Shown here: positions 17,770-40,399 of the stretch, in pieces
Numbering within the stretch: the stretch's first letter is position 1
Layout of the letters: the number at the start of each line of letters is the position of its first letter
From: Pirellulales bacterium
GTDB lineage: Bacteria; Planctomycetota; Planctomycetia; Pirellulales; JAGQOS01
DNA: 42,397 nucleotides
Assembly (NCBI GenBank): GCA_028289525.1
Contig: JANQPJ010000152.1
Span: 1-42,397, forward strand
Reading direction: 5' to 3'
The notes under the pieces: generated by a model
Told to the model about the DNA's origin: nothing
Database searches by the model: none
The model's input: only the letters and a program-made list of their open reading frames with translations
Translations under genes and position numbers: made by a program

Positions 17770-17900
17770 CGGCGTTCGTCCCTTCCAAAGCTTAGACAGG
17801 ACAAGTACACCAAAGAGCTAAACAGAACAAAGACACCACAGAGGGCACAGAGAACACCGAGGGAAAGCGTTTTAGTCTGCTTACACGCGCAGGCGTCGTT

Positions 17901-18031
17901 TCTCTTGTTCCCAAGCTCTGCTTCAAGGCATTTCGAGAAACGTAGGTCGACGAGCGAGGAATCAATAAAAGGATGCCTGGGAAGCAGAGCATCCTTCCAA
18001 AGCGTTCCCAAGCAGAGCTTGAGAACGAGAC
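17901..18031. repeat. MITE-like element with CAAGCTCTGCTT terminal inverted repeats
   Basis: gttcccaagctctgctt ... gcctgggaagcagagcatcc ... gcgttcccaagcagagcttgagaacgagac; homologous to about 24716-24825. Confidence 0.75.
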
Positions 18032-18108
18032 GAAAAAGTACGTGCGATCAATTCCCAAAACGCATCCTACAAACCAAGTCACCATTTTCTACCCTACCGC
18101 GAACTTCC

Positions 18109-21102
18109 ATGACCTCAGTTTCGTCCATCTCGTCGGCTCGTGTTAGCGGCCTGCTGATCCGTTCAAGGCTGGTGCAACAGATCCAGTCCGATCAACGGGA
18201 GTTGTTTCGTATTCAGACGCAACTGAGCACCGGGCGGCGCATTGCCTTGCCAAGTGAAGATGTGCCAGCAGCGGTTCGCGCGATCAGTTTGCAGCGCTTG
18301 ATCGAACGCAAGGAACAAGCCCAGATAAACCTGCAAACGAATGAATCGTATCTGTCAGCAACCGAGTCGGCGCTGAGCAACGTTACCGGGATTCTCTCCG
18401 ACGTGCGTGGATCGGTGTTGTCGGTGACCGATACCACGAGTAGCGATCAGCAACGTCAGGCGGTGGCCGAAGAGATCGACCGGGCGTTGTCCCAACTGGT
18501 CGATGCCGGCAACCAGCGGTTTCGCGGCCGTCATCTGTTTGCCGGCACGCGAACCAGTGTGCGGCCTTTTTTGCTGCGCGACAACGTAGTCGAATACGTC
18601 GGCAACGAAGGCGAATTGCAAAGCTTTTCGGACATCGACGTGTTGTTCGAGTCGAGTGTCGATGGAAATTCGGTGTTTGGCGCCGTGTCGACCTCGGTCC
18701 GCGGCACTGCCGATTTGAATCCAGTGCTAACCTCGGAAACGGCGCTCGACGATTTGCGAGGCGGTTTGGGAATCAGTGTCGGCAGCCTCGAAGTGAGCGA
18801 CGGTGTCGACACGGTGCAGGTCGATATCAGCGGAGCGGCCACGTTGGGCGACGTGGCCCGCTTGATCGAAACCAATCCGCCGGCCGGTCGTCAGACGACC
18901 GTCAGCATTTTGCCGGAAGGGCTGAAAGTTGAACTCGATACGGCCGGTGGCGGCGAGTTGACGATTCGCGAGGTGGGCGGAGGGACCACGGCCAACGAAT
19001 TGGGGATTTTGGCCGAAGACGGCGAGCCGAGCGGCATTGTGCTCGGGGCCGACCTCGATCCGATTGTACGGCTCGGAACCCCATTGAACGAGGTGTTTGG
19101 AGCCCGGGCTCAGGCACGGCTTGCCTCGCCAGGACCGAATAATGATCTCACCATTCAAGCGACCGACGTGGGAGCCCAATTCAACGGCGTTCAAGTGCAA
19201 CTGGTCAACGACCGGCTGCTCACCGCGTTGCCTGGGGTCTCGGTCGGAAACGAATTTGCCCGCTTCGAAACCAGTGCGGTCGCGGCCCAGGCAGCACTCA
19301 CGTTCCCCGGCGCAGATAACGATCTAATTCTCACTTCAACCACGCCAGGCAGCGCCGGCAACGACGTGACCGTGCGAGTGACCTCAACCGAAGCGGGGCC
19401 GAACCCGACCGCCTCGTACGATGCCAGCACTAAAACGTTGTCGCTCAATCTGGAAGCCGACGGTTCGTCAACCGGCAGTCAGGTGGCCACGGCCATCGCC
19501 GGTTTGGCTGGCACGCCGTTTTCCGTTTCGCTCGACACCTCGGCCGAAACAACCAACACCGGGTCCGGGACGATTGGCCTGTTGACCGATAGCGACTTTG
19601 CCAGCACCGGTTCGAGCGGCGGCGAGGCCAACACGTTGTATGTCCACGTTCAGGCAGGCCAAAGCCAATCGCGGCACGTGGTCGACGCGATCAACGCCGA
19701 AGGAACCTTTACGGCCGAAATCGACCTTCGCGATGCCCTGACCGCGGTACAAGCCGGGTTTGGCGTGGTCGATCCAACGGCCGCGACCGTGACCGAAGGT
19801 GGCAGCGGCTCCCAACTCGATCTCGACTCCGGCATCCAGATCACCAGCGGCGAAGAGACGTTTGAAATCAATTTTGACACCGCGGAAACGGTCGAAGATC
19901 TGTTGAACGCCATCAACGGCTCTGGCGCAGGGGTACTCGCCCAAATCAATGCCGCGGGGACTGGAATCGACGTTCGATCTCGGGTTAGCGGAAACGACTT
20001 TGCCATTTCAGAAAACGGGGGCGCGACCGCTTCGCAGTTAGGGATTCGCACCTTTACGGCCGATACCCGGCTTACTGAATTGAACCTTGGTCTCGGGGTG
20101 CCGACCGCTCAAGGGACCGATTTTACCGTGACGACCAGCGACGGCACGGCCCTCGACATCGACGTGGATGGACTGCAAACAGTCGGCCAGGTGATCGATG
20201 CCATTAATAACCATCCTGGCAATACGCAGTTAGTTCAGGCTCAATTGGCCGCCGTTGGCAATGGCATTGAACTCATCGAGCTAAACCCCACCGGACCTGG
20301 CAATTTTCAGGTTGATTCGGCACCTCTCTCCTTGGCGGCCGAATATTTGGGCCTGGTGCCTGAGGGCACGGCGACCAGTGGTTCGCCTACGGCCGCCACG
20401 CTTTCGACCGGAGTTGCCGATCTAGCGGCCGCGAACACCGATTTGACCTTTTCCGCCCGTTCGCCAGGAACCGCGCTCAATGGGGCCCGAATCGAATTCG
20501 TCAACAACGCCGCCACAGGCGACCAGGCCCTGGTGAATTATGACACGGTGTCTAACACGTTGACCGTCGATATCGACCCGGCCAATACGCGAGCAGTGAC
20601 GGTCGCGGCGGCCGTCAACGGTCAGCCAGGCGGTCTGTTTGATGCCCAATTGAACACCGACAACGACCCCAACACCGGGCAAGGAATCATCGCCGAAACC
20701 GGCGTCGTGGCCACATTGGCCGGCGGCACAGGCCAGGTGTTGGCCGGGCGCGACGTGAACCCTCAAGAGACCAACGGGGTGTTTAACACGCTCATCCGTC
20801 TTCGCCAGGCAGTCAACGAGCACGACGTGCCTGCGACGCAGCGTTATTTGGAAGAGCTGGACGCCGATCTTACGCGGCTCACATTTGCCCGCGCGGAGTT
20901 GGGTGCCCGGCAGCAGGGCACCGAAGTGTTGAAAACCCGGCTGGAGAACGAAGAAATCGAACTCCGTTCGGCATTGTCGTTGGAAATCGACGTCGACATT
21001 GCCGAGGCAATTTCGGATCTGACCAGTCGTCAGGCTTCGTTTGAAGCAACTCTGCGAACCTCGTCGAGCATTCTGCAACTCTCGCTGTTGGACTTTCTCT
21101 AG
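18109..21102 (+). CDS. flgL: Flagellar hook-associated protein 3 FlgL, greatly expanded (about 997 aa)
   Basis: 'RVSGLLIRSRLVQQIQSDQRELFRIQTQLSTGRRIALPSEDVPAAVRAISLQ' N-terminus and 'SSILQLSLLDFL' C-terminus, with a long repetitive insertion. Start moved to 18109 because upstream codons lie in the repeat. Confidence 0.92.
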   Translation: MTSVSSISSARVSGLLIRSRLVQQIQSDQRELFRIQTQLSTGRRIALPSEDVPAAVRAISLQRLIERKEQAQINLQTNESYLSATESALSNVTGILSDVRGSVLSVTDTTSSDQQRQAVAEEIDRALSQLVDAGNQRFRGRHLFAGTRTSVRPFLLRDNVVEYVGNEGELQSFSDIDVLFESSVDGNSVFGAVSTSVRGTADLNPVLTSETALDDLRGGLGISVGSLEVSDGVDTVQVDISGAATLGDVARLIETNPPAGRQTTVSILPEGLKVELDTAGGGELTIREVGGGTTANELGILAEDGEPSGIVLGADLDPIVRLGTPLNEVFGARAQARLASPGPNNDLTIQATDVGAQFNGVQVQLVNDRLLTALPGVSVGNEFARFETSAVAAQAALTFPGADNDLILTSTTPGSAGNDVTVRVTSTEAGPNPTASYDASTKTLSLNLEADGSSTGSQVATAIAGLAGTPFSVSLDTSAETTNTGSGTIGLLTDSDFASTGSSGGEANTLYVHVQAGQSQSRHVVDAINAEGTFTAEIDLRDALTAVQAGFGVVDPTAATVTEGGSGSQLDLDSGIQITSGEETFEINFDTAETVEDLLNAINGSGAGVLAQINAAGTGIDVRSRVSGNDFAISENGGATASQLGIRTFTADTRLTELNLGLGVPTAQGTDFTVTTSDGTALDIDVDGLQTVGQVIDAINNHPGNTQLVQAQLAAVGNGIELIELNPTGPGNFQVDSAPLSLAAEYLGLVPEGTATSGSPTAATLSTGVADLAAANTDLTFSARSPGTALNGARIEFVNNAATGDQALVNYDTVSNTLTVDIDPANTRAVTVAAAVNGQPGGLFDAQLNTDNDPNTGQGIIAETGVVATLAGGTGQVLAGRDVNPQETNGVFNTLIRLRQAVNEHDVPATQRYLEELDADLTRLTFARAELGARQQGTEVLKTRLENEEIELRSALSLEIDVDIAEAISDLTSRQASFEATLRTSSSILQLSLLDFL

Positions 21103-21546: not shown

Positions 21547-24345
21547 ATGACACACGTTGGCTCACGGATGAAAACCATGACGTATTGCACCCTGGTCGCC
21601 GGGCTAGGGTTGCTGTGCCATGCCAAGTGGCTCACGGCCCAAACGCCGGAGCCTGTCAGCCCTGGCGAGCTGGTGGTCGATGTGCGCGTGCAAGGGAACC
21701 AAACGGTCACCCAAACGCGCATTCTGAACGAAATCAAGACGCGGCTCGGCCGGCCCTTCTCGCGCGAGACGGTCGAGCAAGATGTTCGCCATCTGGCCCG
21801 CCTGGGCTGGTTTGTCGATGTGAAGCCGTTGTATCAGCAAACGCCTCGAGGCCGCGTGGTGATTTTCCAGGTCACCGAACGGCCCACTCTGCGGTATATC
21901 AAATACCTGGGCAACGAAAGCGTTCGCGACAAAATCATGGCCCGCGAAACCGGGCTCAAGGTCGGCGACGCACTCGACCCCTATGCGGTCGAAGAAGGCC
22001 GGCGGAAGATCGAACAATTCTATCGCGAGCGCGGCTACAACAAGGCTCAGGTAAAAGTTCTCGAAGGAACCAAGCTCCAAGATCGCGGCGCGGTGTTCGT
22101 CATCAACGAAGGCGCTCAGCAGCGTGTCTGGAAGGTCAAATTTATCGGGAACACGATTGCCAGCGATTCTCGCCTGAAGACTCAAATCCAGTCGAAGCCA
22201 GGCCTTTTTTGGTACTTCAAAGGCTACGTCGACCGCAAGAAGATCGACGAAGATATCGACCGGCTAACGGCCTACTACCGTAGCCTGGGTTTTTTCGGGG
22301 CTAAAATTGGCCGTGAACTGGAGTTCAGCGACAGCGACAAGTGGCTCACCTTGACGTTTGTCATTGACGAAGGTCCACGCTACAAAATTCGCAACGTTTC
22401 GTTCCTCGGCAACAAACGTTTCCAGACCTCGCGGCTGGCCACCGGCATCAGCCTGAAGCGGGGCGATCACTTCGATCAAAAGTTGATGAACCATGACGTG
22501 AGCCTGTTGCGCGATTTGTATGGCAGCGAAGGCTATGTGTTTGCCGACGTGAAGGCCGACCCTCGCTTCCTGGAAGAGCCAGGCCAGCTTGACCTGGTGT
22601 ATAACATCGACGAGGGGAGCCGCTATCGAGTTGGCCGCATCACGGTTCACGTGCAAGGCGACAACCCGCATACCCGAATTCAAACCGTGTTGAACCGCGT
22701 GTCACTACGCACGGGCGACATCATCGACATTCGCGAAATGCGGGCTAGCGAGCGCCGCCTGAGGGCCTCGGGCTTGTTTGCCAACAACCCGATCGCAGGC
22801 CAGGCTCCGCGAATCGTACTGCAACCGCCCGGCTCGCAAGAGACCCAATTGGCCGAAGAAAGAGGCCGGGGCGCGCGCGGCCAAAGCCCCGATCCGCCGC
22901 GTATCGCGCCGCGCGGCCAACAAGTGGTCGATGTACAAGTGCATGGTCACTTGGCACCAGCACACCATACTGCCCCCAACCATCCGGCGCGCCTGCGCCA
23001 GACCGCGAAACCGGCGACCAACGTGGTGCGGATGCAAAGCCCAGACTCTGGTGCAACCCGTCCGACCACCGGCTACGGCGGCTATGGGGTGAATGCCGTG
23101 AGCCCCGGCGGGCAACCGGCTGGCGGCTATCCGGTTCAACCGAGCGTTACCCAAGCTCCGGTTCGCACGGCCGCGCTGCCTGGCAACGCCGGGGGCGGGG
23201 TTCCGCAATACACGCAGCCGAATTTTCCCCAACCACACTGGGATCCCAACGCACCGCTGGAAGTTTATCCAGAAGGCTTGCCGGTCGACATTTTTGTCGA
23301 AGAGACGCAAACCGGACGTTTTATGGTCGGCGTCGGTGTGAACTCCGATGCCGGCGTGCTCGGCAACATTACGCTGGATGAACAGAACTTCAACCTGTTC
23401 CGTGTTCCTCGGAGCCTGGAAGATTTCCGCAACGGCACCGCCTTCCGTGGTCGGGGACAACATTTTCGCCTTGAAGCCCAACCAGGCAGCGAGGTGCAGC
23501 GGTACCTGGTCAGCCTGCAAGAACCCTACCTGTTCGATACCCCGGTGTCGCTCGGCCTGAGCGGTTTCTTCTTCGACCGCCGTTTCCGTGATTGGGACGA
23601 ACAACGTTACGGTGGCCGCGTGTCGCTCGGCTACCAGTTGACGCCCGACCTGTCGTTGTCGGTCGCCTACCGGGGCGAAAACGTGAACATCCACGATGTG
23701 TTTGTGCCGACGCCGCCAGAGTTGGCGGACGCGGTTGGCGACAACGTGTTGCACGGCTTTCGCCCGACGCTGCGGCACGACACACGCGACAGTGCGTTCT
23801 TGGCCACCCAAGGGCACCTGCTGGAACTGAGCTTCGAACAGGTGATCGGCACCTTTTACTATCCGCGCGCCGAACTCGACTTGCGACAATACTTCCTGGT
23901 CCGCCAACGGCCGGATGGCTCTGGCCGGCATGTCATTAGCGTCGGGGGCAAGGTCGGGTTTACCGGCGCGCAGACGCCAATCTACGACCACTTTTTCGCC
24001 GGCGGGTTCTCCACGATCCGTGGGTTTAGCTTTCGAGGAGCCGCGCCGCGCGATCCAGACACCGGAGTGACCGTTGGCGGCGAATTCACCATCCTGGGCA
24101 GTGCCGAATATCTGTTCCCCATCACAGCCGACGACATGCTACGCGGCGTCGTCTTTTGCGACGTTGGAACGGTCGAGCGAGATGTCGAGATCAACGACTT
24201 GCGCGTGGCCCCTGGCGTTGGCCTGCGGATCACGGTACCAGCCCTGGGCCCGGCTCCAATCGCGCTCGACTTTGCCTTCCCGGTGGTCACGGTGGCCGGC
24301 GACGACGAGCAAATCTTCAGCTTCAACGTTGGCTTCTTGCGGTAA
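21547..24345 (+). CDS. bamA: Outer membrane protein assembly factor BamA / Omp85 family
   Basis: Signal peptide, several POTRA-like segments ('VRVQGNQTVTQTRILNEIKTRLGRPFSRETVEQDVRHLARLGWFVDV'), C-terminal barrel with 'FFAGGFSTIRGFSFRGAAPRD'. Start may be 21568. Confidence 0.92.
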   Translation: MTHVGSRMKTMTYCTLVAGLGLLCHAKWLTAQTPEPVSPGELVVDVRVQGNQTVTQTRILNEIKTRLGRPFSRETVEQDVRHLARLGWFVDVKPLYQQTPRGRVVIFQVTERPTLRYIKYLGNESVRDKIMARETGLKVGDALDPYAVEEGRRKIEQFYRERGYNKAQVKVLEGTKLQDRGAVFVINEGAQQRVWKVKFIGNTIASDSRLKTQIQSKPGLFWYFKGYVDRKKIDEDIDRLTAYYRSLGFFGAKIGRELEFSDSDKWLTLTFVIDEGPRYKIRNVSFLGNKRFQTSRLATGISLKRGDHFDQKLMNHDVSLLRDLYGSEGYVFADVKADPRFLEEPGQLDLVYNIDEGSRYRVGRITVHVQGDNPHTRIQTVLNRVSLRTGDIIDIREMRASERRLRASGLFANNPIAGQAPRIVLQPPGSQETQLAEERGRGARGQSPDPPRIAPRGQQVVDVQVHGHLAPAHHTAPNHPARLRQTAKPATNVVRMQSPDSGATRPTTGYGGYGVNAVSPGGQPAGGYPVQPSVTQAPVRTAALPGNAGGGVPQYTQPNFPQPHWDPNAPLEVYPEGLPVDIFVEETQTGRFMVGVGVNSDAGVLGNITLDEQNFNLFRVPRSLEDFRNGTAFRGRGQHFRLEAQPGSEVQRYLVSLQEPYLFDTPVSLGLSGFFFDRRFRDWDEQRYGGRVSLGYQLTPDLSLSVAYRGENVNIHDVFVPTPPELADAVGDNVLHGFRPTLRHDTRDSAFLATQGHLLELSFEQVIGTFYYPRAELDLRQYFLVRQRPDGSGRHVISVGGKVGFTGAQTPIYDHFFAGGFSTIRGFSFRGAAPRDPDTGVTVGGEFTILGSAEYLFPITADDMLRGVVFCDVGTVERDVEINDLRVAPGVGLRITVPALGPAPIALDFAFPVVTVAGDDEQIFSFNVGFLR

Positions 24346-25703: not shown

Positions 25704-28700
25704 CTAGGGGAAGAGGACGAGGATCAACAACAGGACCGGCGCTTCGCCGGCATTCCATGCGCGCCGCACGGCCAGATAGAGTCCGACGAACATGAGCGCC
25801 AGCCCCACGACACTGGGCGCAAGCCACAACCACCAGACGAGTCCAACGATCGCAACCATCAGGTGCGGCCAGCGCCAGAGCCATTCGCCCATCGTCGCCA
25901 AGTGGCAACCTCTGACGGCGATTCCCAGGCTCGTCGCCAGTCCCAGCACAACAAGCCAACGCCAGAGCCAATCGCCGCGATCAGGCTCGGCATAGTCGAC
26001 CTCGACGACTGGCTGCCAGGCAGTTCCCGGCTCGCTCCACCGGCTGGCCGTTCCTCGATGGAGGTCGCGATATAAGTTTCCCAACTGCGACACGGTACTC
26101 GTCTCGCCTCGCAGCTTCGCATATTGGGCCATGACGCCCAAGCGACGGGCTAGCCGTAGTTGTTCGTCGTGGGCCGTGGTGGCAGTGGTTTGAACCTCTC
26201 TCGAAATCGTCTCACGCCCGGCGGCCGCGATGGCATGGACCAATGCCCGTTCCGAGGCCAAAAAGCGGCGTGCCCAGGGCCAGTACCAACGCTGGATTTC
26301 CTCGGCCGACTGTCGTTGATCAATGTCGGCAGCACGACTCAACAGACGGCCCATCGACTCGACACGTTGACCGGCTGCGGAAACCACTCCAATCTGATCG
26401 CCACGCGACGCCTGAATAGGCCGATATCCGGCCGGCCCAGAAACGGTCCAAAGGCCACGAGTCACCGGAATCGGTTTGCCGTGTGCCCACAACTCCGGCA
26501 CAACCAGACGAACTTGCTGGTCAGCCAGGCGTTCGATTGCTCCGGAAAAGAGCACCGCCACCCGTTGGGGCAGGCGACGAGAAATGGTAGCCACGCGCCA
26601 ATCGCCTGAACCGGCGCGCCGTAGCGAAGCTGGTTGATCGGCCACCATCGCTTGCAAGAGTTCAAACTGTTTGGGAAACCGAATCCGGCACTCGGCCAAA
26701 CCGGCCGGCTCTAGATCGAAGGTCGCCACGGCGTGCATTCGTCCATCGGCCTGCCAGGTGATCGACACATCGGCCAATTCGATCTGGGGTGTGCCAAGCG
26801 TGGCTCCAGACATTTGCGGAACCGCTGAAAAATCACGTCCAAACACCAGGTATGACTCCAGGCGTTGGGGCATCAGCCAGGGCGGCTTGGCCGGCTGTAG
26901 GCCGCGCGTTCGCCAAGTGATTTGTTTTTCGCCAGTCTGCTTGGGCAGCACGACATAACGCTGTACGTTGCCAGGCCCAATCGGCACGATTTCAGGCACA
27001 CGCAACGACTGGCCGGCTTCGAGGTCGAGTGGAAAATTCATCCGAAACGCAACCTTGCCGGCCAGTGCCTGGCGAGGCCGGACGATCAACCGCTGGTGCG
27101 GCTGGCCTGGTAAATCGGCCAACACCGTATCGGCCGCCGGGGCGACCTCCGGCGAATTGGCAAACCAGGCTGGCAAATCGAAATAGATCGCGTCCAAACG
27201 ACCTTGCTCGACCTCGGCTCGATAGTCAACTTCCACTGCCCAACGATCTCCGCGGGGTACCATCCTCGTCACCAAGGTCGACTGAACCTTCGGCTCGTTG
27301 GCCGACACGCGAAATCCCAAGGGCACCGCATCTGGCAGCACCAAGAAGCTGGCCACCCAGCGCCCAGCGGCATGGGCCGGTCGACGCTTGGGTTGGTCGA
27401 GCGACGCCAGGCCGTCGTCCGGCAGATCGACCAACACTTCTGGCAACCGATAAACATTCAACCGCAACGGGCCCAGAAGGCCCTGCGGAGCGACTTCGCC
27501 AGAGGCCGAACGCAACGCAATCTTGGGCACTGTGAACCGTTGGGTCGCTGGCACTGGGATGTTGCCTGTTAAACGCAAACGGTGCGTGCCGGAGAGCGGT
27601 TGCTTGAGAAAGACGGTAAGCGTTCCATCGTCGGTCCGCGACCAGCGCACTGCTTGCTCCGTGCGGTTTTGAGTCACGGAGACCGAATCGACCACCAACT
27701 CTTTAGGAATCGCAAGCATCTGTCGCAAGTAGAACCCTCGTCGGGTTTCAATCGCGACCTCATAGGCCACCAAGGCCGAGCGCCGCCGGAAGCTGAGGGC
27801 CAGCGTTTGTTGAGCGGTCATTTGTGGCGATTGGGGCCAGGTGGCGAGCGTCCAACCAACCGTCTGGCTGTCGAGCGCATAGGCTCGCTGAGGCGGCTGA
27901 TGCTCGATGCCCCAATGCCCAAAAAATTCCATCACATCGGTCGGCTGCAGCTTTCCTTCGGCCGCCTTGACCTCGGATTCCAATGACTTGTCGACCGAGA
28001 CGCCCAACAAGCGTTCGGTGGTCGCAGTATCGAGCAGACGCAAGAAAGGCAACGACAACTTGCCAACCCCGGAAACACCACGCAACAGCCAACGTCCCTC
28101 GAACACCACTTGATCTTGGGCCGGGCGTTTCAATTCCCAAACGTAGGTTGTACGCACGCCGGGGATGGTTTCGATCAGCCGCACTGGTGCATCGGGCGGC
28201 GCCGGCAACAACCGCAAACGCGGATCGGCCTCGATGCGCAAACGGGTTAGCTCTCCCTGAGAAACGCGCAGCTTGAAACGCGCCGAAAGCACCACGGTTC
28301 CAGGCCGAACGTCTAGCCACAGTAGCTGGAGCGCGTCGAATCGGAGCGCCTGGGTCGCACCGTGGGGGGCAACGGCCCAATCGGCCTGAATTCGTTTGGC
28401 GCTGCCCAATCGGCCGCGCAACATGCCGGCGGCGCGATCGAGTCGCACAGCACCGGCAATCCCCGGCAGCCGCGGCTGACTCTGCCCGACGGCTGCTTCC
28501 ACCGCAATCGTCGACGAAGGCAAACGCGGCACCCGAAAATCAACCCGAGTTCCGGTGGGAGTCGCGAGAAGCTTCGGGCGAAATTGAATGGTTACCCGAT
28601 GTTCCCCAGACGGCTGGCCAGGCAATTCACAATAACCACCTTCGACGTCCCATGCCAACGGCTGGTCGCGCCCGTCGACTTGAGCCACCAGTGGCCGGTG

Positions 28701-31700
28701 AGCCAAATCGCGCGGATCGAGCGCGATCCGAATAGGACGGTTGCGATGGAGCACTGTGATCGAAAACACCGCCCGCGCCTGAACCATCTGGGGCGCGTCT
28801 TCGTCCATCCCACGCACCAAACGTAACCGGTAGTCGGCCGCCGTCAACAACCAACCTCGAGGGACGCCGCTCACCGTTTCGGCGCGTCGGGTAAGATCGT
28901 GCAACAGCGACTCTGGCACCTGATACATGCCGCCGGTCGGCTTCCGATCGTCGTCGATGGGAATAAAGACACGATGAATTTTCACTTCAGGACGCATCTG
29001 GTCGCTGGCTTGGACTGGTTCGGGCACCGTCTGCCCAAAGACCGCTTCGGGGGCGATGCTCAACAACAAGGCCAAGCTGGCCGTAGTGGCCGGCAGCTTG
29101 CGTCTGCCGGAGTCGTGCAAAGCGATCGCTTGAAGCGCCAAGGCCGCCAGACTTCCCAGCACCGCGCCCGTGGCGATCGGCGCATAAATCACCGGCATCG
29201 CCAGGGCAAGCGTTCCACTAGCCGCTAAAGCCAACCACCCCAGGCGCGCCTGACGACGACTACCCCACAAGACCATCGCAAAGGCGAACAAAAAACTCGC
29301 GCCGCTCAATGCTTGAATCGCGACCCGATCGACCACTTGGACCGTGGTGGTCTCAGGCGACCAATCGGCCACCCGAAACGCATTCCAGCCCTGCCGGGGC
29401 AACCGGGGAATGCCAGTGCTGGTCCACGGCAACTTGACCAACCCACCGGCCTCGTTCCAATCGGCCACGGCGACCCAAGGCCGGTCGGGCGTCGTTGCCA
29501 AATGGCCTTGTTTTCCGGACGCTTCGAACGCATAGGCCGCGACCTCTGGCAACAACGGGGCGCGGTTTGCGCGCGTCGCCGCTTCTACCTCGGTCGTCAA
29601 CACGACGGCCCCCGGCGCCACCAGCAACGCGAGTTTTGCACGCTGCAAAATTTCAACGGCCTGCTGCAGACTAGGGCCGTGGACATCCTGCCATGGGACC
29701 AAGCCTTCCGGCAAAATCTCACCGGCGGCTAAACTTTGCTCATCGACCAACAGGGGCTCCCAAACCGCCGTCCTCCGCGGACCGACGGTTTGCAACGACT
29801 CGGCCATTTCCAGCCACGCTCCCCAGGTTAGCTGGCGACCGGAATCGTCGGCCGGCAATGCCTGCCCGAGTCGTTCCAAAAGCGCCCGCACCCATGCTCG
29901 ATCGCGCTCGGCCGCTGGCTCGACGCTGAACATCGTCGACCAATCGGTCAAACGTCCTGGATGAAACGGCAACGAAGCGGTACGGGCTAGCGGACCAAAA
30001 ATCCGCTCCCGCCAGGGGACCGACTCTAGCCACGAAGCGTCTGCCGAGCGAACGGTATATCCCGACGGCACCCAGAGCGTCCATTGCCTGCGAATCACCG
30101 GCAAGTCGATCTGAGGGACCAAGGGACGTTCGGAGCGCGTGAGCGAGCCGGCCAACTGCTCGGTTTCATAGCGGACCACTAACTGAGGAAAACGTTCGCC
30201 GGTTGGCAGTGGAATTGCAATTTCGCGCTGACCGCCCAAGTGCTGCGTCGGTTTGACCAGGGTTCCGTCGAGCCACGCCGAGCGGAAGCGCAATTCCGCT
30301 GGCCAGCTTAAGCGGACTTGGCGATGCCCTATGTTTTCAATCGCGTAACAAGCCGAGTGAATCGCTTTGCCGTCACGCGCATATTGCGACTGCACGTCAC
30401 AGTTCCACACCCAGGCAGAACTGCCTGGGGACACGTGCGACCGGCGCTGGACACGGATTGCGACCGGGGCTCCCTGCAAGGCGTCACGAGCCGGCTCATA
30501 GCGAAACACCATCCTCGCAGCGGTGGTTTTTTCGTCGGCCCAGGGCTCGGGGGGAATCGGCTCTAAACGCTCATTGGCCAGCCCGACGGCAAACCGGCGA
30601 CCGGCCATCACTGAGACTGTGGCCGATTGGCTGGCCGCCTGCGGCAAGCCGGCTAACCCGATCGCCATGGCCGGCTTGACCGGCACGGTGCAAGTAGCAC
30701 GAATCTCAAATGGAACACTGCGCGCTTGGCGGAGCACAATCTCCCAGGTCTCGCCCTGCGGCGAGGCCTCTTCGGTTCCTTCGGCCACCAGAATCCGTTG
30801 GGCGGAAAGCTGGGGTTCGCCATCGGTGGCCAAGGTCCAGCGCCAGGGGTTTGCCCGACGCTGAGTAAAGTGAACCAAGAGTCGGTCGATGCGGCTTTCG
30901 ATCGGCGTACAGCGAATCACCAGGGATTCGGTCAACGAGTCGTTCTCAACCTGGGCCTCAAGCGCCAGAGCAGCCTCATAACGAGCCCCAGCGGTTACCA
31001 GGCGAAACGCCAGACGCCGCGTGTCAGCCCCATGATCGAACAACATGCCGCTCCAGGGCCCATTGAGCAACTCGACGGTTTCAACCTCCAAGGTCGCCGG
31101 ATCGACTTGCAAGAGCCGCTCGTCCCCTTCGCTGGCCAGGCGATAAGGATCGCTCGCGCGGACCAACAACCAATCGGCGGCCAGTTGAGCCTGCTGGAAA
31201 TCGAGCATCCGTAATCGCAAGGCAGGCAACAATTCGTCGAGATTGCTACGCCGTAGATGCCCTCGGGCAACAATTTTGAGCGTTCGACCGACCGCGAGCC
31301 CCTTGGCCAAACGAATCGCCACTTCGCCTGATCCGTCCTTCCCGCGCCGCATGCTCCAGTCGGCAATCGCCTCCTCTGGCACGCTGGTAATGGAGTCGAT
31401 GATCCAATCTTGAGGAAATTTGGCGTCTAGGGTGAACTGCGGAGCGCCGTCAACAGTCAGCTGAGCGGTCATTTGACCGACCACTTCGCTGGCCCCGACT
31501 TCAATGGTCGTTCCCTGGCGCACCTGAAGCTTGGTCTCGTCGCGGCGCACCACCACTTGAACCTGACAGTCCTCTTGGAACTGCTGCAACTCGATCAACT
31601 CACCCAATCGCGGCTCAGGCAAACGCAAGGTTCTCGTTTGCGTGCAGCCCTGGGTATCAAGCTGTTCGAGCACCAAAGGGCGAGGGATCATCATTTCGAT

Positions 31701-32828
31701 CCGCCCTTCCGACCACTTCAGGTCAGGCAGCCGGATCCGTGGCAAGCGCCAAGCGCCTGCGGCAACCGGCGGTGCAATCGCCAGCAAACGAATCGTCTGT
31801 CCCGTCCCAACCAGCGGTTCCGGCAACTGCAATACCACCTGATTCTCGGTCTGCTCGGCAGACGATTCGGCCACCCAGGCAATTTTCTGCTCGCCATAGC
31901 GGGCAGCGACAAGCCTGAGCGTTGGCGCCAGCGAGACGCGAATCGCATGCAGGGGACGCTCGGGATCGTCGATCGCAAATTGGGCCGAAACCTCGACCCC
32001 ACGAGGAGAAAAATCGTACGTGGTCGCTTCCCGCACGGCCGCTCGGGCAGTCGACGCGGCAACCTCCTGACCACGACGAATACGCAACTCAAACTGGGCC
32101 CGTGCCCCGGGCTCTAACCGCCACTGTCGGCGATGGCCGGCAACCGGGCCCACGTCGCTTACCAATCCACCGGCCAATACAGGGCGATCGCCCTCAGGCA
32201 GATTGATCATGATCCGCTGTAGCGGGCAAGGCACCAAGGCCAAATCGTATTGCAAGTCGTCCTGTTGTCCAACGGCTCGCTGCGTCCACTCGATGTGAAG
32301 CTGCCCAGGGTGCTCGACCATCAGGGCCAGCTCTCCGTTCGGCTGGAGGCCCAAACGCGCAGGCTGTCCATCGCTGTCTTGCCAAACAGCTTGTTCGATT
32401 GCTAACCGGCAAGGCCCCAAAGGCAACGACACCGCCCGATCGCCCTGGTGCGAAATTTCCAGCAGCGCCTGACCGATCAAGTTCCCGGCGTCGTCCAAAC
32501 GAGCTTCATATCGGGCCTGAGTAACGCGCGACATGACCAAGTCGGGCACGCCTGCCGCGGCCGCTCGCGCGCGCCGCAAGAGGGCATCGAACTGGTCAGG
32601 CGCGATCGGCAGATACGGCTCCTTGCCGAGTGGCCAATCGTCGATCCGATCGGCCGGCGCGAAAATCCGTCGATACTCGATCTCACGCGGTGCGTGGCTG
32701 GCAGGTTCGGCCGCTTGAGCCCCACACGTGCCAACCAGCCATACTAATCCCACGACAACTTGGCGCGCTAGCCAGCTCAACAGCAGCGGCCGGTGGCCGC
32801 TCGCGAAACGCTTGTCTGGCGTGCTCAT
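25704..32828 (-). CDS. Giant (2374 aa) secreted/membrane protein of unknown function; apparent fusion of two homologous units
   Basis: Continuous ORF with N-terminal signal ('VVVGLVWLVGTCGAQA'), internal TM cluster, internal second signal-like segment, and C-terminal TMs. The 4-bp ATGA overlap with the upstream gene supports translation. Confidence 0.85.
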   Translation of the reverse strand: MSTPDKRFASGHRPLLLSWLARQVVVGLVWLVGTCGAQAAEPASHAPREIEYRRIFAPADRIDDWPLGKEPYLPIAPDQFDALLRRARAAAAGVPDLVMSRVTQARYEARLDDAGNLIGQALLEISHQGDRAVSLPLGPCRLAIEQAVWQDSDGQPARLGLQPNGELALMVEHPGQLHIEWTQRAVGQQDDLQYDLALVPCPLQRIMINLPEGDRPVLAGGLVSDVGPVAGHRRQWRLEPGARAQFELRIRRGQEVAASTARAAVREATTYDFSPRGVEVSAQFAIDDPERPLHAIRVSLAPTLRLVAARYGEQKIAWVAESSAEQTENQVVLQLPEPLVGTGQTIRLLAIAPPVAAGAWRLPRIRLPDLKWSEGRIEMMIPRPLVLEQLDTQGCTQTRTLRLPEPRLGELIELQQFQEDCQVQVVVRRDETKLQVRQGTTIEVGASEVVGQMTAQLTVDGAPQFTLDAKFPQDWIIDSITSVPEEAIADWSMRRGKDGSGEVAIRLAKGLAVGRTLKIVARGHLRRSNLDELLPALRLRMLDFQQAQLAADWLLVRASDPYRLASEGDERLLQVDPATLEVETVELLNGPWSGMLFDHGADTRRLAFRLVTAGARYEAALALEAQVENDSLTESLVIRCTPIESRIDRLLVHFTQRRANPWRWTLATDGEPQLSAQRILVAEGTEEASPQGETWEIVLRQARSVPFEIRATCTVPVKPAMAIGLAGLPQAASQSATVSVMAGRRFAVGLANERLEPIPPEPWADEKTTAARMVFRYEPARDALQGAPVAIRVQRRSHVSPGSSAWVWNCDVQSQYARDGKAIHSACYAIENIGHRQVRLSWPAELRFRSAWLDGTLVKPTQHLGGQREIAIPLPTGERFPQLVVRYETEQLAGSLTRSERPLVPQIDLPVIRRQWTLWVPSGYTVRSADASWLESVPWRERIFGPLARTASLPFHPGRLTDWSTMFSVEPAAERDRAWVRALLERLGQALPADDSGRQLTWGAWLEMAESLQTVGPRRTAVWEPLLVDEQSLAAGEILPEGLVPWQDVHGPSLQQAVEILQRAKLALLVAPGAVVLTTEVEAATRANRAPLLPEVAAYAFEASGKQGHLATTPDRPWVAVADWNEAGGLVKLPWTSTGIPRLPRQGWNAFRVADWSPETTTVQVVDRVAIQALSGASFLFAFAMVLWGSRRQARLGWLALAASGTLALAMPVIYAPIATGAVLGSLAALALQAIALHDSGRRKLPATTASLALLLSIAPEAVFGQTVPEPVQASDQMRPEVKIHRVFIPIDDDRKPTGGMYQVPESLLHDLTRRAETVSGVPRGWLLTAADYRLRLVRGMDEDAPQMVQARAVFSITVLHRNRPIRIALDPRDLAHRPLVAQVDGRDQPLAWDVEGGYCELPGQPSGEHRVTIQFRPKLLATPTGTRVDFRVPRLPSSTIAVEAAVGQSQPRLPGIAGAVRLDRAAGMLRGRLGSAKRIQADWAVAPHGATQALRFDALQLLWLDVRPGTVVLSARFKLRVSQGELTRLRIEADPRLRLLPAPPDAPVRLIETIPGVRTTYVWELKRPAQDQVVFEGRWLLRGVSGVGKLSLPFLRLLDTATTERLLGVSVDKSLESEVKAAEGKLQPTDVMEFFGHWGIEHQPPQRAYALDSQTVGWTLATWPQSPQMTAQQTLALSFRRRSALVAYEVAIETRRGFYLRQMLAIPKELVVDSVSVTQNRTEQAVRWSRTDDGTLTVFLKQPLSGTHRLRLTGNIPVPATQRFTVPKIALRSASGEVAPQGLLGPLRLNVYRLPEVLVDLPDDGLASLDQPKRRPAHAAGRWVASFLVLPDAVPLGFRVSANEPKVQSTLVTRMVPRGDRWAVEVDYRAEVEQGRLDAIYFDLPAWFANSPEVAPAADTVLADLPGQPHQRLIVRPRQALAGKVAFRMNFPLDLEAGQSLRVPEIVPIGPGNVQRYVVLPKQTGEKQITWRTRGLQPAKPPWLMPQRLESYLVFGRDFSAVPQMSGATLGTPQIELADVSITWQADGRMHAVATFDLEPAGLAECRIRFPKQFELLQAMVADQPASLRRAGSGDWRVATISRRLPQRVAVLFSGAIERLADQQVRLVVPELWAHGKPIPVTRGLWTVSGPAGYRPIQASRGDQIGVVSAAGQRVESMGRLLSRAADIDQRQSAEEIQRWYWPWARRFLASERALVHAIAAAGRETISREVQTTATTAHDEQLRLARRLGVMAQYAKLRGETSTVSQLGNLYRDLHRGTASRWSEPGTAWQPVVEVDYAEPDRGDWLWRWLVVLGLATSLGIAVRGCHLATMGEWLWRWPHLMVAIVGLVWWLWLAPSVVGLALMFVGLYLAVRRAWNAGEAPVLLLILVLFP
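32784..32810. repeat. Dispersed repeat B copy inside the 5' end of the 2374-aa CDS
   Basis: cagcggccggtggccgctcgcgaaacg; exact reverse complement of 2596-2622. Confidence 0.9.
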
Positions 32829-35800
32829 CGGTTCGATTCCGTCGGATGCAGCGCGACAGTGGTCGCCGCAGACGATGGGGACGAACCGCCTGACTCGTAG
32901 ACCGACTCCACCGCACTGGGGGTAAGAATCATGCTCGAGATAGGCCCTGAGGCGGGCCGCCGCCGTTTTTGTTGCAACAGCACATATCGCAACAGCCCGG
33001 CCAGTAACACCAACACAACTCCCACGGTCGCGGCTCGACCAACCTGGATTGCCAAGTCAGGCTGACTCACCCCCGCAACCAGCAACAGCATCGCGAGCGC
33101 CACCAAAACGGCCGGCCGACGGGCTACCGGGAGATAGACCAGCAACAGCCCTACGGCCAGGGTAATCCCCGAAATGACAAACAACACGGCCCCGCGGCTG
33201 GCAGTGTGCACTTGCAACACTGGCGGGGAATCGAGTGAGAAAAACAGATATCGAGTGGCCGAGGCCGGAATCTGGCCAGGGGATTTTGCGCCCGCCCAAG
33301 CTTCTAATTGCTGATCGCTCAAGACCGGCCGGCGACTCCAGAGCCAGCTTTCGCGATCCCAAAGATCGAGTTGAGTAAACGACTGGGCCGCCGACAACAC
33401 GGCCTCGCGCGGCGGCAAAACAAGCTGCCAATAGGTTTGGCCATTCCATTGGCTATCCAACATCTGGACTGATGCCAGTTGCAGCGCACCGCGCGGCGGT
33501 TGATCGAACAAATGGTAACGAAGTTCGAGGTGGTGCTGCGTCGCCAAATCGCCCGACGGTAACGACACCACCAGCGTCCCGCTCACCGCTTTGGCAGCTT
33601 GCAACGCCCCGTCTAACAGCACTTCAACTTCATCAGGAGTTACGCCCGAGGGAAGTCGCAAGCGGATTTTCGAGGCGGTCGAGGTAAACCGATAGACTAC
33701 CCGATCTTGACGGGCAGAACCGTTGAGCCAAGTTTGCACCCAGAGCCGATGCACCAACGTTGCCCCGTCATCCGACCGGTCTTCGAGTTCCAAGATCAAC
33801 GGAACCTGGGCCGCTCGTGTTTTGGTCTGCAACACCAGCGACTCGCTACTGCCTGCAGGTCCAGCCAACCAAGCTGCCTGAGAATCGTTTTTGCCTAGTT
33901 TGGTGCGCAACCCGGACTCTGGCTTCACGGTCACTTGGGCCGAAACAAACTGGCCCTCGATCGGAACGACCAGGGGAACCGCTTCGCGCACGGTACTACG
34001 GGGTTCGAGCCTGGGCAACGGGTGTTGATAGCGCACTAGCAGGTTGCAGGTTCCAATGCGAGCCGGGGGCGGCAACGCAACACGCACCATGGTTGCTGGG
34101 CTTGGTTGCTCTTGATTGGCAACCGGTTCCAACAACTTGAACGGCAGGGGGTTGCCTTCGAAGATTAACTCCGCGCGTCCGTCAACCGCCAACCCAGCCG
34201 GCAGTCGTAGGTCGACGTGATCAATCGGTTCATGACGCACTCGATAGACGATGCGTTGCCGGATGTCGGCCGTGGTCTTGCTCACCGCAATTTGGGCATT
34301 GGTCTCAACCGTGATTTCCTGGGGATGGACCGTCATCTGCGCCACAAAACTTGCTTGTTCTGCCTGAGCCCGATAGTAAAGCGGTTCCTGTTGGCGCACT
34401 GGCAATTCGATTTCAGGCGCTACATGCTGTGGTAATAGCCCGACCATCTTGTCGGCTAATGGAACTAGCTCGACATTGTCTGCCGGCTGGACGACCAGCA
34501 TGGCCGGCTCGGAGGAAGTCGCCCTAGGCACTGGCAACACCAACTGGAGGCGCTCGGCATCGGCCTCAACCGGCTGCACCCCGGCCAGTTCTAAAGTGAC
34601 CGGTTGGGTCGAAGGCCGCTTGAGCGGCACAATCAACTCTCCTTCGTCCGTAATCACCACCCCATCTTTATCCACCAGGTGATCCGGTCCGACCTCGACA
34701 TTTTTCCAGCCTTGCATCGCGATCGTAAAGGCAAACACCTTGGCGCCTCGAATCGAATAGCGAAGCTTTCCTTGCAACACGGTCCGATTGGCATCGACAT
34801 GAACCAGATATTCCGGTTCAACCCTAGTTTGCGTGCTTCGCGGAATGACGCGAGCAGGCAGCGAGAAGGGTTGGCTGAAGTATTCAAAAGCGGCCGCCAA
34901 CCGTTCTCGGCTTAACGCCTCGGGCACCTCTTCCACTTGGCGGACGTTGCGCGACTGGCCCCAAAGCACCTGCCAGTCGTCGCGCACCACGACCGCCACG
35001 TGGCCCCATTGCCTCACCGCGTCGACCACCTGAAAACCGGCCATCTCAAGCGTTTTATCGGCCGCGGAAAGATCGAGCGACCGGTCAACGGTAATCCGCA
35101 CCGGCAGCGATTCGCCGGTCGGTTCATCGAGCCGGACCTCGACTTCGCGTCCTCGATCGGCCGCGTTTTCGTCGGCCGCGCTAATTTGCGCAACCGAATA
35201 GCCGTTGTGAACCGTCTGGACCAACGTGGCCTGAGGAGGCAGCCGTACCCGAAACGTATCGAATTGGCCGCCAAAGCTGCGGACCAACAGTCGGGCTTCG
35301 GAACGAATGTTCGGACCGTTCACGCGCACGACAACGTCGCCGGTCGCTTCCAAGGCCGTGGGAGCGGTCGAGCCCTGACGTTCGGCACTATGCCAGGAGA
35401 ATTCTAGTAGACCATCGAGTCCCAGCGCCGAGAACAGGGTATTGTTGCCTTGGGCCTTGGCCGCCTGCAACTGGCCACCTTCGACCAGCCGGCCCACGGC
35501 CTTGGCCATGGCGACCTCCAAAGCCAACTCCGAATGGGTCGCCCGAGGCACCTGAAGCTTTAAGGTCGACAGCTCGCCTTGATGTTCGATGGGCACCAAC
35601 AGTTCGAGTTCCACTTGGTGCAGCGCCTCGTCGGCCTTGGCGTCTGGTTGCTCGTCCGCGCGCAGCCACAACACATAGCCAGCCCCTGGTTCGAAATCCA
35701 GATAGCGCGCGCCCGACTCAGGCTTGGCTAACGGCTTGGCCAACACGGCGCGCTGCATTCCGATCGGCACCCGAACCCAATTGGACCGATGCAAGCGGAT

Positions 35801-36130
35801 GCCAAGTTCGACTTTCAACGCAGCCCGATCCTGTTTGGCATGACCGGTGATTTTGAGCGTCTGCAAACTAAAACGCGGCTGTGCCTGGTCTTCTTCTAGC
35901 CCTTGCAACATACGACGGGCTTTGACAAAAGCCTGATAACTGAAATTCAATACCGCCTGGAGTTGGCCCTGCTCGTCTTCGAGCAGGTAGGTATCAGGTT
36001 CGAGTTCGCGGACCTCGCCCTTGGCAACCTCGGCCGGTTTGGGCGAGGGCTCTTGGGCACACAGTTCCGGCGGGCGAATCGACAGCACGAGAACCGCGAA
36101 AACAAGCGTAACAGCGTGAAAAGCTTGCAC
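32825..36130 (-). CDS. Large (1101 aa) secreted/membrane protein of unknown function, related to the downstream giant protein
   Basis: Signal peptide 'AVTLVFAVLVLSIRPPELCAQ', long beta-rich ectodomain, C-terminal TMs 'VLFVISGITLAVGLLLVYL..AVLVALAMLLLVAGV..VGVVLVLLAGLLRYVLL'. Confidence 0.87.
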   Translation of the reverse strand: MQAFHAVTLVFAVLVLSIRPPELCAQEPSPKPAEVAKGEVRELEPDTYLLEDEQGQLQAVLNFSYQAFVKARRMLQGLEEDQAQPRFSLQTLKITGHAKQDRAALKVELGIRLHRSNWVRVPIGMQRAVLAKPLAKPESGARYLDFEPGAGYVLWLRADEQPDAKADEALHQVELELLVPIEHQGELSTLKLQVPRATHSELALEVAMAKAVGRLVEGGQLQAAKAQGNNTLFSALGLDGLLEFSWHSAERQGSTAPTALEATGDVVVRVNGPNIRSEARLLVRSFGGQFDTFRVRLPPQATLVQTVHNGYSVAQISAADENAADRGREVEVRLDEPTGESLPVRITVDRSLDLSAADKTLEMAGFQVVDAVRQWGHVAVVVRDDWQVLWGQSRNVRQVEEVPEALSRERLAAAFEYFSQPFSLPARVIPRSTQTRVEPEYLVHVDANRTVLQGKLRYSIRGAKVFAFTIAMQGWKNVEVGPDHLVDKDGVVITDEGELIVPLKRPSTQPVTLELAGVQPVEADAERLQLVLPVPRATSSEPAMLVVQPADNVELVPLADKMVGLLPQHVAPEIELPVRQQEPLYYRAQAEQASFVAQMTVHPQEITVETNAQIAVSKTTADIRQRIVYRVRHEPIDHVDLRLPAGLAVDGRAELIFEGNPLPFKLLEPVANQEQPSPATMVRVALPPPARIGTCNLLVRYQHPLPRLEPRSTVREAVPLVVPIEGQFVSAQVTVKPESGLRTKLGKNDSQAAWLAGPAGSSESLVLQTKTRAAQVPLILELEDRSDDGATLVHRLWVQTWLNGSARQDRVVYRFTSTASKIRLRLPSGVTPDEVEVLLDGALQAAKAVSGTLVVSLPSGDLATQHHLELRYHLFDQPPRGALQLASVQMLDSQWNGQTYWQLVLPPREAVLSAAQSFTQLDLWDRESWLWSRRPVLSDQQLEAWAGAKSPGQIPASATRYLFFSLDSPPVLQVHTASRGAVLFVISGITLAVGLLLVYLPVARRPAVLVALAMLLLVAGVSQPDLAIQVGRAATVGVVLVLLAGLLRYVLLQQKRRRPASGPISSMILTPSAVESVYESGGSSPSSAATTVALHPTESNR

Positions 36131-36328: not shown

Positions 36329-37105
36329 TTACTCTGGCGAATCTAACAAAGCCATCATTTGCCGATGAATCGTGGGGCCTGCGGCCGCGACAAATTTGGG
36401 ATTCCAGAGGTCAAACGCCCCCCCATCGCGGGCTGTGAGCTGTCCGCCGGCCTCGATGACCAACAAACAGCCAGCCGCCACGTCCCAGGCTTTCACGTCG
36501 CTGGCCCAGCAGACGTCGTAGCGGCCAGCCGCCAAATAGGCCAGATTCAGCGCCGCCGAGCCCCCCCGGCGCACCGCCTGACACTTGGGCAACACGCGGA
36601 CAAACTCATCAATGGCCGGCAACTGCTTGTCGACCCGATGGGGAAAACTGGCCGCCACCAGGGCCTCGGAAAATTCGGCCACCTGGCTCGTCCGCAGCTG
36701 GTTGCCGTTGAGCGTCGCCCCTTGGCCCCGTTGGGCTACGAAACACTCATCCAGCATCGGGTCGAACACCGCACCAACCAGGCTCTGGCCTTGATGGACC
36801 AACGCCACGCTGGTCGCATAGTGGGGAATGCCGTGTGCGTAGTTGGTCGTCCCGTCGAGTGGGTCGACTACCCAGCAATACTCGGCCAGCGGCTCGGCTG
36901 CCCGAGGCCCCTCTTCGCCAACAAAGCCATGGTCGGGAAAGTGTTGGGCCAACAATTCCTGAATCGCCTGCTGAGCGGCAAGATCGGCATCGGTTACCAA
37001 ATCGGCAGGCCCTTTATATCGGGCTTGAAAACGGCCCAAGTGCTCAAGCAACACCTGACCGCCAAGTCGGGCTGCCCGTTCGCAAATCGTTCGTTCGTGA
37101 GACAT
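36329..37105 (-). CDS. Inositol monophosphatase family protein
   Basis: 'DLVTDADLAAQQAIQELL', 'GEEGPRA', 'WVVDPLDGTTNYAHGIPHYATSVAL', 'WASDVKAWDVAAGCLLVIEAGG'. Start set at MSHERTICERAARLGG because the longer ORF runs through a repeat. Confidence 0.92.
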   Translation of the reverse strand: MSHERTICERAARLGGQVLLEHLGRFQARYKGPADLVTDADLAAQQAIQELLAQHFPDHGFVGEEGPRAAEPLAEYCWVVDPLDGTTNYAHGIPHYATSVALVHQGQSLVGAVFDPMLDECFVAQRGQGATLNGNQLRTSQVAEFSEALVAASFPHRVDKQLPAIDEFVRVLPKCQAVRRGGSAALNLAYLAAGRYDVCWASDVKAWDVAAGCLLVIEAGGQLTARDGGAFDLWNPKFVAAAGPTIHRQMMALLDSPE

Positions 37106-37107
37106 TT

Positions 37108-37322
37108 GAGCGTTTTTTCCGTTGTTAGTTGTTGGTGAGTGGTGAGTGGTGAGTGGTGAGTGGTACGCGCTCGCGCGTTGCTTAATCCTTGGAAATTGGA
37201 TATTGGGTGTTTTTCTTTGACGCAAAGGAAATGTCCAATATTCAACAAGGAACGCCCAACGATCCAAGTAATTCAAAACGCGCGAGCGCGTCTCCCTCCA
37301 CCCTAAACCCTCCACCGCGTCC
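37108..37322 (-). repeat. About 200-bp composite dispersed repeat, inverted relative to the copy at 437-634
   Basis: Reverse complement closely matches 437-634, including 'ttttgaattacttgga.cgttgggcgttccttgttgaatattggac' and 'aagcaacgcgcgagcgcgtaccactcacca'. Confidence 0.85.
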
Positions 37323-37624
37323 TTCCACCGCGCAAAACCTACCGGGGGGGCAACCGCCGACCAAGAGATATGTGTACCGGTAAATTTTAACGACAATCAG
37401 GGAAGCCTGAGTGTAAAGACCAAAAAGTTTCAAAAAAGAGTCTGCTTGGCATTCGAGTTTTCTATCCAAAAGACTGGACATCCAGCGCCAAATCTGTATG
37501 ATCGAATCTTAGTGAACGAAGAGGGTGTCGAGTTTTCATCTAGCGAGAGTTTATTCACGGCAGCATACGCCTTATTTTTATTCATCTCAGCTTCGTTGGT
37601 GCATTCGGCCTCTTCTCTGTTCCG

Positions 37625-38655: not shown

Positions 38656-39291
38656 TCAAAGCCGACTCGATTGAGCAAGCTTCGGTCGGGCGGTTCGCGC
38701 TGCACCGTTGAGTTGGAAACAGGGCAACTGGGCAATCTCAACCATTTCCGCCAAGCCTTCAGAGACCAATTCTTGTCCGGTGATATACCGGCCTGGATGA
38801 ATCCACTTATCCAAATGCCCGCGTGGCATCCCAAACAGCTTGGCCAGCAGTTCGTCCATCTCTTCCTCAAGATGTCCGAAATGGCGTGCCCATTCGGCCG
38901 CTTCGCCCAGCCCCACGTGTTCTTCGCTCTGCCATTTCATGGGATGAAACAGCAACACGCTAAACGGAGTCACCAGCCGGCGTTCACACGCGGCAAAGGG
39001 CCACAACATGGCCGAAGAGCACTCGCCTGTCACGATCCCGGTCACTTTCAGACCGCGCAATTTCATAATCGACATGAGCGAAAGCGACGTGTAAGGACTG
39101 CCGCCTGGCGAATCGATATACATCAGACATTCGCCGCCTGGCTCGACGCCTAGCAGTTTTTCCGTGATGTCACTTTCGTGGTCGGTTAAGTCGCCAATCA
39201 CGGCAATCTCGACCGGGCCTTCTTGAATTGCATCTTCGGCCATCAATCGTGTATTCCTCAGGTTACTGAAGCCAACTTCGCTAAACTCCAT
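38656..39291 (-). CDS. ClpP-like / SDH-family peptidase homologue (crotonase fold)
   Basis: 'CLMYIDSPGGSPYTSLSLMSIMKLRGLKVTGIVTGECSSAMLWPFAACERRLVTPFSVLLFHPM' aligns with ClpP IxSPGG / Ser / His regions. Start may be 39243 (MAEDAIQEG). Confidence 0.82.
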   Translation of the reverse strand: MEFSEVGFSNLRNTRLMAEDAIQEGPVEIAVIGDLTDHESDITEKLLGVEPGGECLMYIDSPGGSPYTSLSLMSIMKLRGLKVTGIVTGECSSAMLWPFAACERRLVTPFSVLLFHPMKWQSEEHVGLGEAAEWARHFGHLEEEMDELLAKLFGMPRGHLDKWIHPGRYITGQELVSEGLAEMVEIAQLPCFQLNGAARTARPKLAQSSRL

Positions 39292-39670: not shown

Positions 39671-40399
39671 ATGGGCATTAAGTTTCAGTGTCCCAATGGG
39701 CACCAGCTGAACGTCAAAAACTTCCTGGCTGGAAAGCGTGGAATTTGTCCCGACTGTGGGATCAAATTCATCGTTCCCGACAAGAGCGGTGGAGTCGCCG
39801 AAATGGCCTCGACCACCCAGGTGGCCCCTCAGGCTTCTCCGGCTCCGATGGAGCCCCCGTCGGATACCAACCCGTCCACGACGACCGTCACGGCCGTACC
39901 GGTCGACCAACCAGCGTCGACGCCAACGGCTATTCCCACCGATCCGTTGGCCGTTGCTCCCACGGCCTCCTGGCATGTCCGGCCCAGCACCGGTGGCCAG
40001 TTTGGCCCGGCGACGGCCGGGGTGATGCGCCAATGGTTGTCGGAAGGACGGATCGGCAACGATTCACTGGTGTGGCGTGACGGCTGGAGCGAATGGCAAA
40101 ACGCGGCTCAGGTCTTTCCGCAAATTGGCAACCCCAGCGCCCAAGACATCCACACGTTGCTCGGGCAACCGGCCCCCCAACGAGCAGTGAACCGTCTGCG
40201 CTCGCACCGTTCACGGCACAAGTCTGAGCAGCTCACCCTGGCAGCGATCGTCGTGATGATCTTTTTGACCGTGTTGCTCTTTGTCGGTCTGGTGTATGTG
40301 ATCTCACAGCAAAATTTTGGCGCCAGTCGCCTCGAACGCTTGCCTGAGGCTGTAGGCCATTGTCCCCAAGCACATGCGATGCCAAGATTTGAAACCTGA
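39671..40399 (+). CDS. Zinc-ribbon plus GYF_2 (DUF4339) domain protein with a TM segment
   Basis: 'FQCPNGHQLNVKNFLAGKRGICPDCGIKF' zinc ribbon; 'WHVRPSTGGQFGPATAGVMRQWLSEGRIGNDSLVWRDGWSEWQNA' GYF_2; C-terminal TM 'LAAIVVMIFLTVLLFVGLVYVI'. Confidence 0.85.
   Translation: MGIKFQCPNGHQLNVKNFLAGKRGICPDCGIKFIVPDKSGGVAEMASTTQVAPQASPAPMEPPSDTNPSTTTVTAVPVDQPASTPTAIPTDPLAVAPTASWHVRPSTGGQFGPATAGVMRQWLSEGRIGNDSLVWRDGWSEWQNAAQVFPQIGNPSAQDIHTLLGQPAPQRAVNRLRSHRSRHKSEQLTLAAIVVMIFLTVLLFVGLVYVISQQNFGASRLERLPEAVGHCPQAHAMPRFET

Follow-up and report, generated by a model that had tools for sequence, protein, structure and literature searches.

What is built by two very large genes that overlap each other on a Pirellulales contig? 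The planctomycete cell envelope is unusual, enlarged and folded, and its parts are poorly known. In the window (the whole analysed stretch of DNA, 42,397 nucleotides), genes A and B have a combined coding length of 3,475 residues, and such a set, which occurs in most sampled genomes of the class and lies outside the searched family libraries, is a candidate basic part of the envelope. Both open reading frames are clearly genuine genes, with long-frame relatives, mostly of 25–40% identity, in 53 of the 58 genomes examined from this order. Their positions, sizes and four-base stop-start overlap (ATGA) agree exactly with a preliminary description of this DNA, which had also proposed translational coupling. 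This proposal fits the orthologous loci, where a B start overlapping the A stop has been kept in 28 of 39 cases (25 at −4 and three at −1); in the others, B starts within ~35 bases of the A stop. A and B are adjacent in all 40 loci of the order. The features of the pair are collected in Table 1.

Table 1. Coordinates of the gene pair and its assigned or predicted features in the window.
Feature	Positions	Strand	Basis
Gene A (unit A), 1101 aa	32825..36130	-	ORF list; orthologues in 53/58 order genomes
A signal peptide, residues 1-25 (ELCA^Q)	36056..36130	-	hydropathy; helix 2-17 in model; Ala-x-Ala-type sites in 27/38 orthologues
A N-terminal strand-helix motif, residues 45-82, conserved	35885..35998	-	strands 47-51 and 57-61, helix 65-75; counterparts in B1 and B2
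A, five predicted tandem beta-sandwich repeats, residues 83-255, 256-430, 431-601, 602-787, 788-935	33326..35884	-	AF2 model; repeat-repeat hhalign
A three-helix membrane cluster, residues 976-1056	32963..33205	-	model and hydropathy; best-conserved segment of A
Gene B, 2374 aa, fusion of B1 and B2	25704..32828	-	ORF list; split genes in L148 and L154
B1 signal peptide, residues 1-40 (CGAQA^AEP)	32709..32828	-	hydropathy, cleavage-site test
B1 N-terminal motif, residues 49-95	32544..32684	-	alignment, conservation
B1 repeat ectodomain, residues 96-935	30024..32543	-	collinear with A 63-924, E 2e-41; M1N matches near 263, 440, 806
B1 TM1-3, residues 1166-1238	29115..29333	-	hydropathy
Internal former signal peptide, B1-B2 junction (ATTASLALLLSIAPEAVFG^Q)	29043..29114	-	N-terminal signal peptide of B2 in three-gene loci; drift
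B2 N-terminal motif, residues 1283-1325	28854..28982	-	model helix, alignment
B2, five predicted tandem repeats, residues 1326-2140	26409..28853	-	AF2 model
B2 helical stalk, residues 2141-2285, not present in A	25974..26408	-	helices 903-996 of B2 model
B2 C-terminal TM cluster	25707..25973	-	hydropathy, model

For the unit comparison, 40 loci of ~20 kb each were sampled from 40 genomes, B was cut at residue 1245 into B1 and B2, and profiles built from 39–41 orthologues were compared by hhalign in local mode. All three pairs were collinear, with homology spanning ~820 columns: A–B1 scored 395 (E 2e-41, 823 columns), while B1–B2 and A–B2 reached 375 (E 9e-39) and 355 (E 2e-37), respectively, each over more than 810 columns. 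Reversed or column-permuted profiles scored 12–51, and the top null, 51, matched a TM segment to an N-terminal segment. Plain hmmsearch agreed, at 1.6e-39 for a B protein searched with the A profile and at about 1e-25 for A proteins searched with the B profile. Thus, homology among the three units extends over the full length of the ectodomain. The preliminary description had seen one layout in the 1101-aa protein and in both halves of the 2374-aa protein, and had held that a lack of significant profile-profile likeness among the units would speak against it; the opposite was found (355–395 versus nulls of at most 51). It had also treated A as the weaker member. Instead, A–B1 is the best-scoring pair, and the distance from B1 is similar for A and for B2.

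In each of A, B1 and B2, hhalign gave off-diagonal self-matches shifted by ~175 residues. A and B2 were modelled separately with AlphaFold2 (A: 16 sequences, mean pLDDT 78, pTM 0.41; B2: 10 sequences, mean pLDDT 76, pTM 0.40), and an identical five-repeat plan was predicted for both, each repeat being a β-sandwich of ~175 residues that opens with a long hairpin. The first strands were placed at residues 87, 259, 434, 605 and 791 of A, with pLDDT of the repeats mostly 80–95, and at residues 81, 252, 424, 602 and 770 of the B2 model, corresponding to B residues 1326, 1497, 1669, 1847 and 2015. Repeat-versus-repeat hhalign scores of up to 70 (R3–R4), compared with at most 22 for the reversed controls, support most of the repeats; R1 is the most divergent one. 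Since pTM is only ~0.4, the placement of the domains relative to each other is unfixed, and a rod shape is assumed. The signal segment, N-terminal motif and "long beta-rich ectodomain" of the preliminary description are all present, the last of these resolving, where modelled (A and B2), into the five predicted tandem repeats.

By hydropathy over 39–41 orthologues, most have a signal segment at the N-terminus of A and of B. A ends in ~three TM helices; in B, ~three TM helices come after the B1 ectodomain, then a single additional segment, then the B2 ectodomain and finally a TM cluster at the C-terminus. We infer that the ectodomains face the periplasm. The preliminary description had named C-terminal TM clusters for units A and B; by hydropathy, A, B1 and B2 each end in one.

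In two distant genomes, the three units are encoded by three individual genes, and each of the proteins starts with a signal peptide. B is therefore a gene fusion, and the additional segment, an internal "TM", was once the signal peptide of B2. One of them (locus L148, genome G203) encodes proteins of 1128, 1237 and 1138 aa, which match A, B1 and B2 in this order (5.6e-86, 7.7e-59 and 8.4e-75, respectively), and the other (L154, G153) encodes counterparts of 1202, 1419 and 1470 aa. In the window, the counterpart of the B2 signal segment lies inside B, at about residues 1239–1262. Its drift, expressed as mean top-residue frequency, is 0.28, compared with 0.26–0.30 for the N-terminal signal peptides, 0.36 for the B1 TM helices and 0.45 for the motif that follows. 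When a hydrophobicity drop was required, Ala-x-Ala sites were detected at the internal segment in 25 of 39 cases versus 2 of 79 inward-to-outward TM controls, and without this rule in 30 of 40 versus 42 of 79 (p 0.03); the rule is biased against hairpin TMs, and the excess over the controls depends on it. The internal site of B in the window is of the loose kind only (VFG^Q), the stricter rule giving none there. From these sequence patterns, we lean slightly towards signal peptidase cleavage at the internal site. The series of gene fission and fusion, with three genes in some genomes and two in others, makes both subunit identity and processing testable.

The five genomes of the order outside the 53 that carry the pair gave no match even by profile search, so the pair is not strictly indispensable. 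In the class, single-sequence search was positive in 55 of 99 genomes and profile search in 24 of 46 then-negative ones, which amounts to about 79 of 99, and in the phylum sample a narrow profile found at least 39 of 121, a lower bound. The profile scan of genome contigs used a five-row alignment. In a FastTree of 70 units, which has long branches and uncertain deep nodes, units of one type (A, B1 or B2) from different genomes group together (4 label changes versus 28.8 in shuffles). As the units cluster by type and not by genome, the divergence into A, B1 and B2 predates the compared groups. The tree further splits each unit type in two, namely that of the window and a second one found through much of the phylum, which is also present in family f22 (L155 and L167), there as an additional, paralogous A/B operon. 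Both genomes with this operon (G072 and G114) contain another A copy elsewhere.

We also infer the heteromeric cell-envelope assembly suggested in the preliminary description, which gains support because A and B are adjacent in 40 of 40 loci, three genes occur in L148 and L154, and the units cluster by type. Three features had been overlooked there: the ribophorin-I/M1N-like character of the repeats considered below, the fusion in B with its internal former signal peptide, and the second, paralogous A/B operon. Three neighbours recur next to the pair in the order and were judged to be bystanders: upstream, an inositol monophosphatase; downstream, a GNAT acetyltransferase; and a divergent gene of 249 aa (cluster 2); no constant neighbour with a telling function was found in the order's loci.

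No named family had been recognised in the preliminary description, and searches of Pfam, NCBIfam and PDB sequences agree. Pfam, NCBIfam and PADLOC gave no above-cut-off match for the window proteins, and the PDB sequence profile search yielded chance matches only. For the ectodomains, no match below E 0.001 was obtained in any of these four resources with the window proteins, or in Pfam with 25 A and 18 B proteins. The single match under this threshold, to TgpA_N (4.7e-5) in one A orthologue, probably concerns a TM segment. No match was found in the plasmids searched. We found no description of the family in the open literature, an earlier mention being possible.

The models suggest a possible fold likeness. 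Foldseek against the PDB ranked ribophorin I/OST1 first for both, with 6ezn_A (OST1, E 1.9e-9) on top for A; for B2, the top match was 8b6l_O (E 3.5e-9), an OST subunit from the structure of the Sec61-TRAP-OSTA translocon. These top matches have a probability of 1.00 and TM-scores by target of just 0.19–0.33 across several domains, the global values being low because multi-domain chains are compared. Integrin alpha chains and other large β-sandwich proteins follow in the lists, and leukotriene A4 hydrolase (LTA4H) appears in both. Ribophorin I/OST1 resembles our units in having lumenal tandem β-sandwich domains followed by a membrane anchor. However, it has two such domains and one TM helix, whereas five domains and ~three TM helices are predicted here; there is no match to Pfam Ribophorin_I among the window proteins or the 25 A and 18 B proteins, and no oligosaccharyltransferase gene was observed beside the pair.

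A profile of 36 M1-aminopeptidase N-terminal domains (M1N) was also compared with the units. It scored 27–40, with reversed scores of 15–23 and probabilities of just 3–39%, so that each match is weak alone. Seven of the eight M1N matches in A and B2 start at most three residues from a modelled repeat start, and Glyco_hydro_2_N (GH2_N), a control β-sandwich family of similar length, scored 15, 25 and 16 on the three units; because the repeats are alike among themselves, their common M1N register is not fully independent evidence. The M1 N-terminal domain (PF17900; LTA4H) is likewise a β-sandwich of ~180 residues, and these in-register matches are suggestive, but no proof, of a remote kinship with the repeats. 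PF17900 itself gave no match at E up to 5 in the 25 A or 18 B proteins. M1 enzymes carry one copy of this domain fused to an HExxH catalytic domain, in contrast to five per unit and no catalytic domain here.

Ninety positions are conserved at ≥85% in A and B. They are confined to P, G, W, L, Y, R, F, A, V and Q, and almost all are P, G, W or L; D, E, H, K, C, S, T and N are missing from this set, which contains no catalytic pattern. Together with the lack of an HExxH zinc motif in either window protein, this argues for a structural or binding role.

Building on the homology, adjacency and three-gene forms observed, we propose, with a probability of roughly 45%, that A, B1 and B2 make up a three-subunit, inner-membrane-anchored periplasmic scaffold. 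The two genes would give rise to three subunits of one complex, each exported via its own signal sequence and each comprising a periplasmic rod of five ribophorin-I/M1N-type β-sandwich domains with a C-terminal bundle of ~three TM helices. The overlapping stop-start and the B1–B2 fusion would keep A:B1:B2 near 1:1:1, and the heterotrimer would assemble through the TM bundles. In the fused B, the B2 signal sequence would either be cut by signal peptidase, which leads to three chains, or be retained as a fourth TM helix. The complex would then serve, without enzymatic activity, as a scaffold, spacer or binding platform between the inner membrane and the outer envelope. In a bolder form, which we consider possible but doubtful, this would be a phylum-wide pseudo-threefold heterotrimer of fifteen M1N/ribophorin-I-like domains, in which B is a polyprotein cut at its internal signal peptide and the whole represents a bacterial family related to ribophorin I. 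If true, such a bacterial relative of the ribophorin-I fold bears on the origin of that eukaryotic subunit.

The main rival explanation builds on the likeness to ribophorin I: the ribophorin-I-like domains would form a polypeptide-holding platform at the exit of a secretion channel, where they bind newly exported or modified proteins and prevent their aggregation or present them to enzymes. Ost1 consists of two similar luminal β-sheet domains and binds glycosylated peptides, which fits this role, but the structures of OST subunits show no chaperone-like folds (PMC7226087). As a shared fold does not carry function, and genes for secretion or glycosylation are not among the constant neighbours, we regard this explanation as unlikely.

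Rather less probable is a structure that spans the periplasm as a conduit or tether for lipids or glycans, comparable to the AsmA/TamB-like or MCE bridges. An inner-membrane anchor, a long repetitive periplasmic part and broad conservation in a diderm phylum would suit it. However, the predicted repeats are separate β-sandwiches and neither a continuous β-groove nor an MCE ring, Pfam gave no match to AsmA/TamB-like or MCE families in the 25 A and 18 B proteins, and membrane anchoring of AsmA/TamB differs from the C-terminal helices and cleavable N-terminal signal of our units.

We consider it very unlikely that the proteins serve in surface adhesion or form a matrix, with VWA partners providing the adhesion. 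A YfbK-type VWA protein does adjoin the pair or a two-unit relative in four distant genomes (L161, L162, L165 and L168), but it is no neighbour of the pair in the order; the integrin alpha chains among the Foldseek matches lose weight because integrin calf domains are generic large β-sandwiches, and the polytopic membrane clusters at the C-terminus suggest an inner-membrane location. The planctomycete giant proteins with the export motif RRLxxExLExRxLLA, described as likely surface-exposed and in some cases containing integrin-beta-type domains (PMC8567305), share great length, export and phylum with A and B, which differ in their ordinary signal sequences and C-terminal TM clusters. An ECF sigma gene is present in one of these four genomes (L162); one of the YfbK-type VWA proteins has a zf-HC2 match at its N-terminus, with the ECF sigma gene lying upstream.

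Finally, an enzyme related to M1 peptidases, to which the resemblance of the repeats to the M1 N-terminal domain might point, is close to refuted by the missing HExxH motif, the lack of conserved acidic, His/Lys, Cys, Ser or Thr residues and the absence of any Pfam peptidase domain in the window proteins and the 25 A and 18 B proteins.

Several other genes of the window were recorded. A BamA-like Omp85 protein with five POTRA matches (21547–24345, +) is encoded on the strand opposite to the pair; it was considered as a partner and rejected, as it formed no cluster with other loci and is not a conserved neighbour. A flagellar cluster (11657–21102, +) comprises an FlgA-like chaperone, FlgH, FlgI, FlgN, FlgK and a 1065-aa flagellin-like protein, which has Flagellin_N, Flagellin_C and Flagellin_IN matches and is large for a hook-associated protein. 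The inositol monophosphatase gene (36329–37396, −) has TTG as its listed start codon. Because the match to the family only starts at residue 105 and there is an ATG close to residue 98, the true start is probably ~100 codons downstream of the listed one. A short Clp-protease-like protein (38656–39291, −) and a GYF_2-domain protein (39671–40399, +) are also encoded.
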